Below are positions 22,842 through 34,754 of a stretch of 64,000 nt of DNA, in pieces. The stretch comes from Paracoccaceae bacterium (GTDB lineage: Bacteria > Pseudomonadota > Alphaproteobacteria > Rhodobacterales > Rhodobacteraceae). The notes under the pieces were generated by a model. The model did no database searches. It saw nothing but the letters and a program-made list of their open reading frames with translations, and was not told where the DNA came from. The position numbers were made by a program, and so were the translations under genes. Position 1 is the stretch's first letter, and the number at the start of each line of letters is the position of its first letter. The stretch is taken from contig JAIXZY010000039.1 in the NCBI GenBank assembly GCA_027489355.1, forward strand, positions 124,001 through 188,000, in the 5' to 3' direction.

Positions 22842-22906
22842 TCTGGCTCATGGTGATGCACGCGGCTGCGGGATAGGTTTCCTGAAACAGGGCCGGGAGG
22901 GGCCGG

Positions 22907-25239: not shown

Positions 25240-27060
25240 TCACTTTGCCTCGTACCACCAGGTGTCCGGCAGGAACCCTGTCCAGTCACCGTAAAGCGGT
25301 ATCTTCTGGGGATACTTCAGGTCGGCGGAGTATGCCAAGCGGGAAAGGTCGGAATACCAGATCGGGACAACATAGCGGCCCGAGGTCAGGACCCGGTCAA
25401 GCGCCCTGGTGGCGGCGGTGAACTCCTCGGCATCGGGCGCCTTCAGCATGGCGGCGATCATCGCCTCGACCGCGGGAGAATTCACGCCCATCCAGTTGCG
25501 CGTACCGGATTCCGTCACGCCCGCAGCACCCCAGTAGAGAAGCTGCTCGTTGCCGGGCGACAGCGACAGGGACCGGATGTAGTGGGTCATGTCGAAGTCG
25601 TAGGCGTTGGTGCGTTCCTTGTACTGGGCGTCGTCGACCTTGTTCAGCGTCGCGGTGATGCCAAGCGCCTTCAGCGCCTCGATATAGACCTGGGCGGCCG
25701 AGGCCATCTCGTCCTGGCCGGTGACCAGCAGGATCTCGAAGGCGAAGGGCTCGCCCTTGGCGTTCTTCAGGACGCCATCGTCGCCCACGGTCCAGCCAGC
25801 CTCTTCCAGAAGCTTGGCGGCGGCGCGGATGTTCTTGCGATTGGTCTGGTCGCCGTCCGAGACGGGCAGCGCATAGCCTTCGATCGCGCCGGGGGGAAGT
25901 TCGGCGGCGAAGGGTTGCAGAAGCTCCAGCTCGCGACCCTGGGCCGGGGCGCCGGGCTCCATACCCAGGAAAGAGTTGCCGAAATAGGACGGGATGCGGG
26001 GCAGGGCGCCGCCATTCAGGGTCTGGTTGATGAATTCGAAGTTGAACGCCAGGATCAGCGCCTCGCGCACGCGCCAGTCGGCGAACATCGGGCGGCGGGT
26101 GTTCATCACGAACCCCTCGATCCCCGAAGGGCGGCCATGCGGGATTTCCGCCTTGATGACGTCGCCCGACTGGACGGCGGGGAAATCGTAAGAGGACTGC
26201 CACTTGGCCACGTTCGCCTCGCGGTAGGCTGAAAGCTGGCCGGCCTTGAATGCCTCGAAGATCGCCTGCGGGTTGGCGAAATAGTCGTAGCGGATCTCGT
26301 CAAAGTTCCACTGGCCGCGGTTGAAGGGCAGGTCCTTGCCCCACCAGTCGGGGTTGCGCTTGTAGGTCACCTGCTCACCGAGTTCGGAACTGTCGAGAAG
26401 ATAGGGACCCGAGCCGACCGGGACCTCCATCGTCGCCTCGGCGAAGTCCTTGCCCTCCCATTGCGCCTTTTTCAGGATCGGGCGCAGGCCCAGGATCAGC
26501 GGCAGCTCGCGGTCCTCGACATTGAAAGTGAAGCGGACCGACCGTTCGCCCGTCTTCTCCATCGTGGCGATCTTCTTCCAGGCGGCGGCGTAGCGCGGGT
26601 TGCCTTGCGTTCCCAGCGTCTCCATCGACCACATCACGTCTTCCACCGTGACGGGCGAGCCGTCCGAGAATCGCGCCTCGGGCCGCAGGGTGAATTCGAC
26701 GTAGGTCCGGGCCTCGTCGGTATCAAGCGATTCGGCCAGAAGGCCGTAAAGCGAGAAGGGTTCATCGTAGTTCCGGCCCATCAGGGTTTCGACCACGAGG
26801 GTCGAGATCCCAAGCGTCGGGCGGCCCTTGGTGACAAAAGGGTTGAAGCTGTCATAGCTGCCCGCCTCGCCCCAGCGGTAGGTGCCGCCCTTGGGCGCGT
26901 CCGGGTTGACCTGAGGCAGGGACACAAAATCCGGGGGGAGGGCAGGTTCGCCATACATAGCTATGCCGTGCTTCGGCTCTGCCTGCGCGGCTGCGGCGAA
27001 AAATGCCAGCGCCGCTGCCAGTCCGAACCTGCGCAAGGCGGTGCCCGTTTCCCGTCTCAT
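25240..27060 (-). CDS. ABC transporter substrate-binding protein, family 5 (YejA-like)
   Basis: This is a 606-aa periplasmic oligopeptide-type binding protein. The signal peptide is RRFGLAAALAFFAAAAQA, cut before EPKHG. Family 5 features include the opening MYGEPALPPDFVSLPQVNPD and the DPxxPKGG-like turn (NPDAPKGGTYRWGEAGSYDS), characteristic of YejA and agrocinopine-type proteins. The start at 27060 gives an intact signal sequence. An upstream TTG frame would bury it. No permease or ATPase gene is adjacent, so its partner is elsewhere. The ligand is unknown. Confidence 0.9.
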   Translation of the reverse strand: MRRETGTALRRFGLAAALAFFAAAAQAEPKHGIAMYGEPALPPDFVSLPQVNPDAPKGGTYRWGEAGSYDSFNPFVTKGRPTLGISTLVVETLMGRNYDEPFSLYGLLAESLDTDEARTYVEFTLRPEARFSDGSPVTVEDVMWSMETLGTQGNPRYAAAWKKIATMEKTGERSVRFTFNVEDRELPLILGLRPILKKAQWEGKDFAEATMEVPVGSGPYLLDSSELGEQVTYKRNPDWWGKDLPFNRGQWNFDEIRYDYFANPQAIFEAFKAGQLSAYREANVAKWQSSYDFPAVQSGDVIKAEIPHGRPSGIEGFVMNTRRPMFADWRVREALILAFNFEFINQTLNGGALPRIPSYFGNSFLGMEPGAPAQGRELELLQPFAAELPPGAIEGYALPVSDGDQTNRKNIRAAAKLLEEAGWTVGDDGVLKNAKGEPFAFEILLVTGQDEMASAAQVYIEALKALGITATLNKVDDAQYKERTNAYDFDMTHYIRSLSLSPGNEQLLYWGAAGVTESGTRNWMGVNSPAVEAMIAAMLKAPDAEEFTAATRALDRVLTSGRYVVPIWYSDLSRLAYSADLKYPQKIPLYGDWTGFLPDTWWYEAK

Positions 27061-27112: not shown

Positions 27113-27126
27113 TTGAATCTATTCAA
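27113..27126. promoter_or_regulatory. AT-rich palindrome upstream of the binding-protein gene
   Basis: TTGAAT-CT-ATTCAA is a 6-bp inverted repeat with a 2-nt centre, 53 bp upstream of the binding-protein ATG and just before the -35 box of the small RNA candidate. It could be an operator acting on either unit. No regulator can be named. Confidence 0.4.
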
Positions 27127-27135
27127 ACTTTTAGC

Positions 27136-27164
27136 TTGGCCATCGGCGGAGAGGGGACTATAAA
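27136..27164 (+). promoter_or_regulatory. Sigma-70-like promoter
   Basis: TTGGCC (27136-27141) and TATAAA (27159-27164) are separated by exactly 17 bp. Transcription would begin near 27171 with no coding frame downstream before a strong terminator. This is the best promoter match noticed in the window. Confidence 0.6.
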
Positions 27165-27170
27165 GACTGT

Positions 27171-27247
27171 ACTGCTCGATAGGTTTCTTGCCTGTATGAA
27201 ACCTGCCTCAAAGACTGAACGCCGGCCTTGCGCCGGCGTTTTTTTCT
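27171..27247 (+). ncRNA. Small RNA candidate, about 75 nt
   Basis: A promoter-like sequence ends at 27164 and a textbook terminator ends at 27245, with no open frame between them. The predicted transcript has a 7-bp stem AGGTTTC/GAAACCT (27181-27187 with 27198-27204) around the loop TTGCCTGTAT. An unpaired GCCTCAAAGACTG follows, then the terminator. The layout (one stem-loop, a linker, a U-tailed hairpin) is that of a trans-acting small RNA. It lies between divergent genes. It could also be a bdhA leader attenuator. No known family was recognised. Confidence 0.55.
27218..27245 (+). terminator. Rho-independent terminator of the small RNA candidate
   Basis: AACGCCGGC (27218-27226), loop CTTGC and GCCGGCGTT (27232-27240) form a perfect 9-bp stem, followed by five further T residues. 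No gene on the plus strand ends upstream of it. Confidence 0.85.
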
Positions 27248-27282
27248 TCCCGGGTCCATGACTTCCGTTTCGCCGCAGGGCA

Positions 27283-27303
27283 TGCAATGCTTTCGCAAAT
27301 GCA
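27283..27303. promoter_or_regulatory. TGC-rich element upstream of bdhA
   Basis: The segment reads TGCAATGC-TTTC-GCAAATGCA, a set of TGC/GCA half-sites 18 bp before the bdhA ATG. The polyhydroxybutyrate regulator PhaR of Paracoccus and Rhodobacter binds CTGC-N3/4-GCAG-type sites, so this is a possible but imperfect PhaR site. Confidence 0.3.
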
Positions 27304-27320
27304 GCATTTGGAGGGGTGGC

Positions 27321-28094
27321 ATGACACTTTCGGGCAAACGGGCAGTGATCACCGGATCGAACTCGGGGATCGGGCTCGGCGTCGCCGAGGCGCTGGCGGC
27401 GGCAGGAGCCGAGGTGATTCTGAACAGCTTCACCGACCGGGCCGAGGATCATGAACTGGCGGCAGACCTTGGCGCACGGCACGGCGTCGCGGCCCGCTAC
27501 ATCCCTGCAGACATGTCCAAGGGGGCTGAATGCCGGGCGCTGGTCGAGAAGGCGGGCGGCTGCGACATCCTGGTGAACAATGCCGGCATCCAGTTCGTCA
27601 GCCCGATCGAGGCGTTCCCGGTCGAGAAATGGGATGCGATCCTGGCGATCAACCTGTCCTCGGCCTTCCACACCACTGCCGCGGCGCTGCCGGGGATGCG
27701 GGCAAAGGGCTGGGGCCGCGTGGTCAACATCGCCAGCGCCCACGGACTGACCGCCAGCCCCTTCAAGTCGGCCTATATCGCGGCCAAGCACGGCGTCGTA
27801 GGCCTGTCGAAGACCGTGGCGCTGGAAACCGCGGGGCAGGGCATCACCTGCAACGCGATCTGCCCCGGCTATGTGCTGACCCCGCTGGTCGAGGCCCAGA
27901 TACCCGAGCAGATGAAGGTCCACAACATGGACCGCGAAACCGTGATCCGTGAGGTGATGCTGGAGCGTCAGCCCTCGCGCCAGTTCGCGACGGTCGAGCA
28001 GATCGGCGGGACCACGGTCTATCTCTGCAGCCCGGCAGCGGACCAGGTGACGGGGACCACGATCAGCGTCGACGGCGGTTGGACGGCGCTGTGA
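27321..28094 (+). CDS. bdhA: 3-Hydroxybutyrate dehydrogenase
   Basis: This is a 257-aa short-chain dehydrogenase interconverting (R)-3-hydroxybutyrate and acetoacetate with NAD. The nucleotide loop TGSNSGIGLG is near residues 11-20, NNAG follows, and the catalytic region contains NIASAHGLTASPFKSAYIAAK with Ser, Tyr and Lys. The length is exact for the family. GGAGGGG precedes the ATG. The patatin gene follows by 48 nt, the same order as the bdhA-patD operon described in Legionella. The role is use of stored polyhydroxybutyrate. Confidence 0.93.
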   Translation: MTLSGKRAVITGSNSGIGLGVAEALAAAGAEVILNSFTDRAEDHELAADLGARHGVAARYIPADMSKGAECRALVEKAGGCDILVNNAGIQFVSPIEAFPVEKWDAILAINLSSAFHTTAAALPGMRAKGWGRVVNIASAHGLTASPFKSAYIAAKHGVVGLSKTVALETAGQGITCNAICPGYVLTPLVEAQIPEQMKVHNMDRETVIREVMLERQPSRQFATVEQIGGTTVYLCSPAADQVTGTTISVDGGWTAL

Positions 28095-33971: not shown

Positions 33972-34754
33972 CTACCTCGCGGCGCGGGCGACCTCGGGCA
34001 GGCGCTGGAAAATCATGTTCAGAAGCGCGCCCTTGGCGACCGCCTGGGCGGTGGTCTCGACCGCCAGCGCCTCACGCGCAAGACGCAGGTGCTTTTCGAC
34101 CATCGCCGGGCTGACACCCATCAGCAACGCCACGTCCTGCGTGGTCTTGCCATCTGCAACCCATTCCAGCGCCTCGCGCTGCCGCGGCGACAGCGCACGG
34201 TGGCGGCTCAGCTGCGGCAGGTGGACGATTGTCAGGTGCATCATGTTCGCCACCGCCATGATCTCTTCCTTGCGGGCAGCAAAAATCTGGTCGACCTGGG
34301 CCGGGCTGATCCCCGGGTCCGCGATCAGTCCCAAGGCGCCTTTCGACCGTGACGAGACCTCGGGAAAGCTGACAGACATCCCGGCCACGATCCCCATCGC
34401 CGCGTTCTGCCGCACCGCCTCGGCCTCCTCGGCCGACAGGCGTCCGGCCTCGAAGGCCTCCTTCACCCAGGACCAGGTGCAAGCGCCCGAGTGCTGTTCC
34501 GCCCAGCGGAAGACCGGAGTCTTGGAGTAGAACCCGCCCTGGAAATACCGCTTCACATAATCGGCGTCGCAGGTGGTCAGGAACAGCGCGTCCTCAGGAT
34601 CGCCGATGGTCTTGAGGTGTTTGAAGCGGGTGAAGCCATAGTTGGCGCGGCGAAAGCCGAGGGCGGCGAAATAGGCGGTTCCGCGTTCCCAGGCCTCGTC
34701 TATCGACGAGGAACTGGCGATGCGGTTCAAAAGTGCAAGTATCGTCTCGCTCAT
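33972..34754 (-). CDS. LuxR-family regulator (solo) with autoinducer-binding-like domain
   Basis: This is a 260-aa protein with an N-terminal autoinducer-binding-like domain (about 20-165) and a C-terminal LuxR helix-turn-helix (187-245). The latter contains ALSPRQREALEWVADGKTTQ and SPAMVEKHL. In the ligand pocket the usual DPV reads TPV (Thr79 in FYSKTPVFRWA), so the aspartate that contacts the acyl-homoserine lactone amide is missing. No luxI gene is in the window. It may bind another ligand or act without one (inference). Confidence 0.85.
   Translation of the reverse strand: MSETILALLNRIASSSSIDEAWERGTAYFAALGFRRANYGFTRFKHLKTIGDPEDALFLTTCDADYVKRYFQGGFYSKTPVFRWAEQHSGACTWSWVKEAFEAGRLSAEEAEAVRQNAAMGIVAGMSVSFPEVSSRSKGALGLIADPGISPAQVDQIFAARKEEIMAVANMMHLTIVHLPQLSRHRALSPRQREALEWVADGKTTQDVALLMGVSPAMVEKHLRLAREALAVETTAQAVAKGALLNMIFQRLPEVARAAR

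Follow-up and report, generated by a model that had tools for sequence, protein, structure and literature searches.

Between a divergently oriented ABC transporter gene and bdhA, the genome of a Paracoccaceae bacterium contains a short intergenic region for which a reading made from the sequence alone had proposed a small RNA with its own promoter and terminator. This raises the question of whether such a gene exists and what its product might do. The window analysed here is the whole stretch of 64,000 nucleotides, located on contig C49 of a 4.2-Mb source genome; its relevant features are collected in Table 1, with the neighbouring proteins named using Pfam and NCBIfam.

Table 1. Features of the small-RNA locus and its surroundings, in window coordinates
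Feature	Position	Strand	Evidence
Divergent ABC transporter solute-binding protein, family 5	25240..27060	-	PF00496, 227.2 bits
Conserved upstream box TTCAAACTTTTA	27122..27133	+	Exact 12-mer once in 5 of 6 genomes, always at this promoter
-35 element TTGGCC	27136..27141	+	Each position of TTGG conserved in 94-96% of 175 copies
-10 element TATAAA	27159..27164	+	Positions 1-3 are T, A, and T in 170, 173, and 171 of 175 copies (97-99%)
Predicted 75-nt small RNA	27171..27245	+	Fold; found in 384 of 394 genomes of the family and in all 121 of the order sample
39-nt frozen block (5' tail, hairpin, linker)	27172..27210	+	Identical in 212 of 213 copies
Hairpin 1, stem TAGGTTTC/GAAACCTG	27180..27205	+	Fold; pairs invariant in 81 aligned copies
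Linker CCTGCCTCAA, proposed seed	27202..27211	+	In 2 same-genus genomes, its complement TTGAGGCAGG lies in the 5' leader of nrdR
Intrinsic terminator, stem 27217-27241 plus T tract	27217..27245	+	Fold; 6 pairs with compensating double changes
bdhA, 3-hydroxybutyrate dehydrogenase	27321..28094	+	TIGR01963, 362.5 bits (cut-off 307.05)
LuxR-type regulator with autoinducer-binding domain (Pfam)	33972..34754	-	Leader holds two RNA complements in the window genome

Promoter, hairpin, and terminator were all found where the sequence-only reading had placed them. The -35 and -10 elements are separated by a 17-bp spacer, the first hairpin counts 8 pairs, including one U-G, around the 10-nt loop TTGCCTGTAT (27188-27197), and the terminator stem counts 10 pairs, with the Ts running to its end. 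The predicted start is the A or C ahead of TGCTCGATAGG, near 27171, and the first 4 nt of the linker sit inside the stem of hairpin 1. That no coding gene precedes the terminator on the plus strand likewise holds: the upstream gene, which starts at about 27060 and whose product we take to be YejA-like, points the other way, and bdhA starts only beyond the terminator. Taken as a single sequence, the 82-nt strand has a folding energy of -27.4 kcal/mol, the mean of its shuffles being -16.95 (z -3.9, with 1 of 200 shuffles as good), a strict sigma-70 scan finds no promoter at 27136-27164, and terminator-like sites over 10 kb number 6 against a mean of 4.6 in shuffles. Because the strict scan misses the promoter and the terminator count lies near expectation, the single sequence alone is no proof; the claim that the parts fit together too well for chance is not borne out by one-sequence statistics but stands by conservation across hundreds of genomes.

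Distribution and upstream signals

A search of relatives, a check that the sequence-only reading had suggested, recovers homologues in nearly all Rhodobacteraceae sampled. The element is present in 30 of 32 same-genus genomes, in 384 of 394 genomes of the family (393 genera; 345 of the 347 of good quality), and throughout an order sample of 121 genomes, every one of them Rhodobacteraceae, two of which show a second, weak match (29.5 bits). As judged from these searches, the RNA gene appears to be usually single-copy per genome and to occur in nearly all Rhodobacteraceae. Matches in a class sample are confined to 10 of 240 genomes, 3 belonging to Rhodobacteraceae and scoring strongly and 7 to other groups and scoring weakly (27.9-33.7 bits); inspected by eye over 200 nt each, none of these seven has the frozen block and most have only a terminator-like hairpin. 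An exact 32-nt pattern is found in at least 118 named stretches, including Paracoccus, Ruegeria pomeroyi, Leisingera, Cereibacter, and Neomegalonema, the last being placed in a separate family of Rhodobacterales in NCBI taxonomy. In Paracoccus versutus and P. pantotrophus (loci L205 and L206), the RNA gene lies on a replicon of 1.5-1.7 Mb recorded as a plasmid, which fits a chromid.

Promoter signals were compared in the 175 of 179 copies with enough sequence, using best-match positions, which makes the agreement given in Table 1 somewhat flattering; the distance from TTGG to the -10 element is 19 nt in 140 of the 175. The exact 12-mer of the upstream box has no copy in the sixth of the six genomes searched, the best match to TTCAAACTTTTAGCTTGG reaches at least 15 of 18 positions in 141 of 175 copies, and several Paracoccus copies retain the box only partly. 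That the box is unique is no surprise, given how rich in A+T it is and how rich in G+C the genomes are, but its conservation is unexpected; the box could represent an activator site or an UP element. A CenR site was considered and set aside, the motif TGA-N8-TGA given in excerpts of PMC9275681 not fitting the box. RpoH promoters carry TTG according to excerpts of PMC3441632, and the criterion applied for RpoHI/RpoHII was TTG at -36 to -34 and A at -12, with T at -9 for RpoHI; when the start is set at 27172, the TTG, C-37, T-13, and A-12 fit RpoH whereas T-9 does not, and a sigma-70 reading also fits.

Frozen RNA body, changing terminator, and neighbouring genes

The 39-nt block, which begins at the second base of the predicted RNA and stops short of the terminator, is unchanged in 178 of 179 and 34 of 34 copies from 209 distinct contexts, the sole exception (L075) carrying one change. 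These copies are partly dependent: in four pairs both members have one and the same context, and 118 copies were fetched by an exact match to 32 of the 39 nt, so that those 118 were unable to vary at these positions. The fairest sample comes from the 121 genomes of the order sample: when their best matches are ranked by score, the block is unchanged in 20 of the 20 at the bottom of the ranking; these copies stand outside the exact-match selection, but the search model was built from such copies. In an alignment of 81 copies, picked for variety from 170 distinct sequences, the terminator stem shows compensating double changes at 6 pairs, and none of the nine pairs in the hairpin part varies, with no covariation either way. 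The hairpin thus rests on thermodynamics, invariant pairs by themselves being uninformative on pairing. The fixed portion is the RNA body, and the terminator sequence and the flanks change freely. This comparative evidence supports the proposal of an intergenic small RNA with its own promoter and terminator, and the locus can be considered, with very high confidence from its sequence and conservation, a real small-RNA gene.

The gene neighbourhood bears on the possibility that the RNA is a terminated leader, an attenuator or riboswitch, of bdhA, the attenuator being a case that the sequence-only reading had named as overturning its proposal. Of the 168 testable loci (179 in total, 11 being too short upstream), 162 have the divergent solute-binding gene, and the RNA is kept in the 6 without it. 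A bdhA start follows within 700 nt downstream in 132 of 160 testable loci (179 in total, 19 being too short) and lies 75 nt past the T tract in the window, both of which speak for a leader. In the other 28, where bdhA is found further downstream in 8 and is unseen in 20, often with only 1.5 kb of sequence, the RNA and its terminator are intact, which argues against an attenuator, as does the freedom of the terminator to change when the RNA body does not. A TGC-rich stretch between terminator and bdhA that is also kept in part of the genus points in the same direction, and a bdhA leader is highly unlikely. This stretch, GCATGCAATGCTTTCGCAAATGCAGCAT at 27275-27312 of the window, is TGC/GCA-rich, lies just upstream of bdhA, and is reminiscent of what may be a PhaR-type site. 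Still less probable is a dwarf peptide encoded within the block (AUG AAA CCU GCC UCA ...): an AUG is indeed present and followed by a short frame in many copies, but the third positions of the codons CCT, GCC, and TCA never vary, the length and end of the frame differ between copies, the AUG straddles loop and stem, and no Shine-Dalgarno sequence is seen by eye at the right distance. The invariant third positions, shifting frame end, and missing Shine-Dalgarno sequence led to the rejection of this reading.

Comparison with known RNAs

No Rfam family reaches its gathering score on the element, so that the statement of the sequence-only reading that no known family is recognised holds for Rfam. 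The best match, SorX (RF02784), scores 23.7 bits against a cut-off of 46.6. It resembles the RNA in its length of about 75 nt, single hairpin, C/U-rich linker, U-tailed terminator, and occurrence in the same bacterial family, but differs in the linker (CCUCCCUGUUGGA against CCUGCCUCA) and in that the RNA has no coding gene ahead of it on the same strand. The source genome has SorX elsewhere, at C7:185783-185857 (75.4 bits, over the cut-off), with a diverged copy beside it (C7:185684-185746, 32.1 bits) and a third at C51:97667-97719 (44.5 bits). SorY (RF02651) scores 17.8 bits against a cut-off of 111; it shares with the RNA an own promoter, a size of about 80 nt, a terminator, and its occurrence in Rhodobacteraceae, but lies at 1,632,645 in Rhodobacter sphaeroides, where the RNA homologue lies at 1,443,997. 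SorY-like RNAs match 323 of 394 family genomes at E <= 1e-6 and only 1 passes 111 bits; this Rfam cut-off may be set much too high for the true family. The alphaproteobacterial MmgR/suhB (RF00519; 19.5 bits, cut-off 41) gives a weak alignment over its full length with two hairpins, and is tied to PHB granules by its Rfam name as the neighbouring bdhA is to the PHB cycle, but the first stem and the CCUCCCU linker are not common to both RNAs. The Xanthomonadaceae RNA Xoo2 (RF02241) likewise aligns weakly (20.5 bits, cut-off 45) and differs in the aligned first stem. SorX, SorY, and MmgR were rejected as identities for the RNA. The CCUCCUCCC motif, which CcsR and other cuckoo RNAs presumably carry in exposed loops, is absent from the 75 nt.

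The possibility that the RNA is the R. sphaeroides sRNA StsR (RSs0827) in another host was weighed by position and description only. Excerpts of PMC8307010 describe StsR as a 72-nt, Hfq-associated, and RpoHI/RpoHII-dependent RNA, and both the similar size and the TTG of RpoH promoters at the RNA's promoter speak for identity. The R. sphaeroides homologue lies on the minus strand of chromosome 1 (1,443,997-1,444,071), flanked by the same two genes; the contig in question (C4 of genome G082) is almost certainly chromosome 1 of R. sphaeroides 2.4.1, as anchored by the SorY match and by two FNR-site anchors within about 90 bases. RSs1543 is taken here to be SorY, and PcrZ to be RSs2430. Published positions, as given in excerpts of PMC6238624, are 1,632,642 for RSs1543 and the start of SorY, 1,724,505 for RSs1624, and 2,565,820 for PcrZ, and UpsM (RSs0682) is located by motif matches beside the dcw genes near 0.7 Mb. 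The RSs numbers seem to rise with chromosome position, and by interpolation the homologue would correspond roughly to RSs1370, with RSs0827 expected near 0.85 Mb, about 0.6 Mb away from the homologue at 1.444 Mb. Since the numbers appear to follow position, the homologue is probably not StsR, and the RNA itself is very improbable as a StsR counterpart. StsR-like candidates were absent under a strict pattern in 160 kb of R. sphaeroides and also near RSP_0820-0829, the latter being uninformative as RSs numbers are not RSP numbers.

Two intergenic candidates of P. denitrificans, 134 and 60, are described in excerpts of PMC5107571 as RNAs of 80-84 nt found in many Rhodobacteraceae; they may differ from the RNA described here, being reported also in Streptomyces or Sphingomonadales, whereas the RNA was unseen outside its family in the class sample, a search covering Alphaproteobacteria only. 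Six sequence strings found no match in an open-licence library of papers. An earlier listing of the RNA without a name is possible, for instance in R. sphaeroides lists, of which RSs1386, near the interpolated position of about 1370, is presumably an example. What stands out is how strongly the RNA is conserved and that no name for it appears in the literature searched.

Putative mode of action and candidate targets

The arrangement of an own promoter and an intrinsic terminator in an intergenic region, which characterises Hfq-dependent trans-acting sRNAs, is found here in both sequence and conservation. In the mechanism proposed, a 75-nt non-coding RNA would be made from its own promoter, ended by the intrinsic terminator, and act as an Hfq-associated trans-acting regulator. 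Its exposed tracts, the loop UUGCCUGUAU and the linker CUGCCUCAA, each of which contains UGCCU, would pair with purine-rich AGGCA/GAGGCRG stretches near the ribosome binding sites of several mRNAs and lower the translation or stability of these targets. Base-pairing regulation in trans is the likely function, and the joint reading, in which the self-contained RNA would act with Hfq through its two tracts, is probably correct.

Target prediction with the loop had also been proposed by the sequence-only reading. The loop complement ATACAGGCAA has 16 matches in five genomes, 5 of which are the gene itself, and no leader site recurs among the exact loop complements; the only recurring site (L237/L249) was discarded as it looks like coding sequence on the other strand, and two sites, each in a single genome (L235, L244), lie just before an ATG. 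Within the window, duplex energies against 47 start regions place bdhA 7th and the solute-binding gene 19th and were judged unspecific. Exact complements of 9-11 nt occur in six places, none longer than 10, two of which lie 25-45 nt before an ATG, namely at 22881 and before the LuxR-type gene at 34754, whose leader has a 9-mer complement plus a loop complement. When 20 same-genus regions were fetched, the LuxR-type gene was found in 20 of the 23 sequences searched and 18 leaders were readable, among which the 9-mer occurs in none and CAGGCAA in one; as the complements are unconserved, this gene was rejected as a target.

The exact linker complement TTGAGGCAGG occurs, with the RNA gene itself included, 7 times in the source genome, 8 times in Tabrizicola thermarum (G031), and 8 times in R. 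sphaeroides. Among the 20 non-self sites in these three genomes, two places recur. One of them (L262/L269) was dismissed because it looks by eye like coding sequence; the other (L257/L264), shared by the source genome and T. thermarum, lies about 36 nt ahead of nrdR, with a small hairpin before it and the ribosome binding site after it. An NrdR search of 31 family genomes gave 29 matches, of which 28 leaders were readable (L301 being dropped) and, with L264, made up a set of 29. GAGGCRG is found at -25 to -39 in 12 of these 29 leaders (10 of 27 once the two genomes behind the lead are left out), this lead being post hoc, drawn from 31 non-self sites in five genomes, and the leaders being related rather than independent. 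The same word occurs in 12 of 816 other genes, which a simple ORF rule had called in the window and the fetched loci, and at a mean of 0.88 and a maximum of 5 in 2000 shufflings of the leaders; among 210 rearrangements it comes out on top, the runner-up having 9. It is missing from 17 of the 29 leaders, and nrdR can be named as a target of the RNA only tentatively from these sequence comparisons. Nor can nrdR alone explain the freezing of the block, which stays fixed also in genomes whose nrdR leader is without GAGGCRG. In several Rhodobacteraceae (L257 and L264, and among L273-L300), the nrdR leader shows a small hairpin, then GAGGCRG, then the ribosome binding site, and this hairpin together with GAGGCRG may form a separate regulatory element.

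The RNA could also act mainly by binding a protein, either as a sponge or in a dedicated RNA-protein particle, with the frozen hairpin as the recognition site. The invariance of both stem strands and the loop, with no exchange in the 81 aligned copies, the near-complete identity of the 39 nt among all copies, and the failure of any leader with an exact loop complement to recur in the five genomes would all be accounted for in this way. The hairpin, C/U-rich linker, and U-tailed terminator form the architecture of base-pairing sRNAs such as SorX, and we know of no protein partner of the RNA, both of which count against a protein-binding role; it is unlikely, if less so than a bdhA leader or a peptide.

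Base-pairing regulation stays the preferred reading, but the invariance of both stem strands counts against it, exceeding what a regulator acting through seed and loop would require. A possible, if speculative, explanation is that the whole order Rhodobacterales has here a signature regulatory RNA that went unnamed, its 39-nt body being held fixed in both stem strands by the need to meet a fixed molecular partner, which would be either a dedicated RNA-binding protein or a large number of mRNAs simultaneously. The Rhodobacteraceae include common marine and soil bacteria as well as the model phototroph R. sphaeroides, and across them the frozen 39 nt suggest a strong, shared regulatory need and an important control job for the predicted RNA. 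The field gains a defined gene for deletion tests in tractable strains, and the RNA is a ready family for Rfam.
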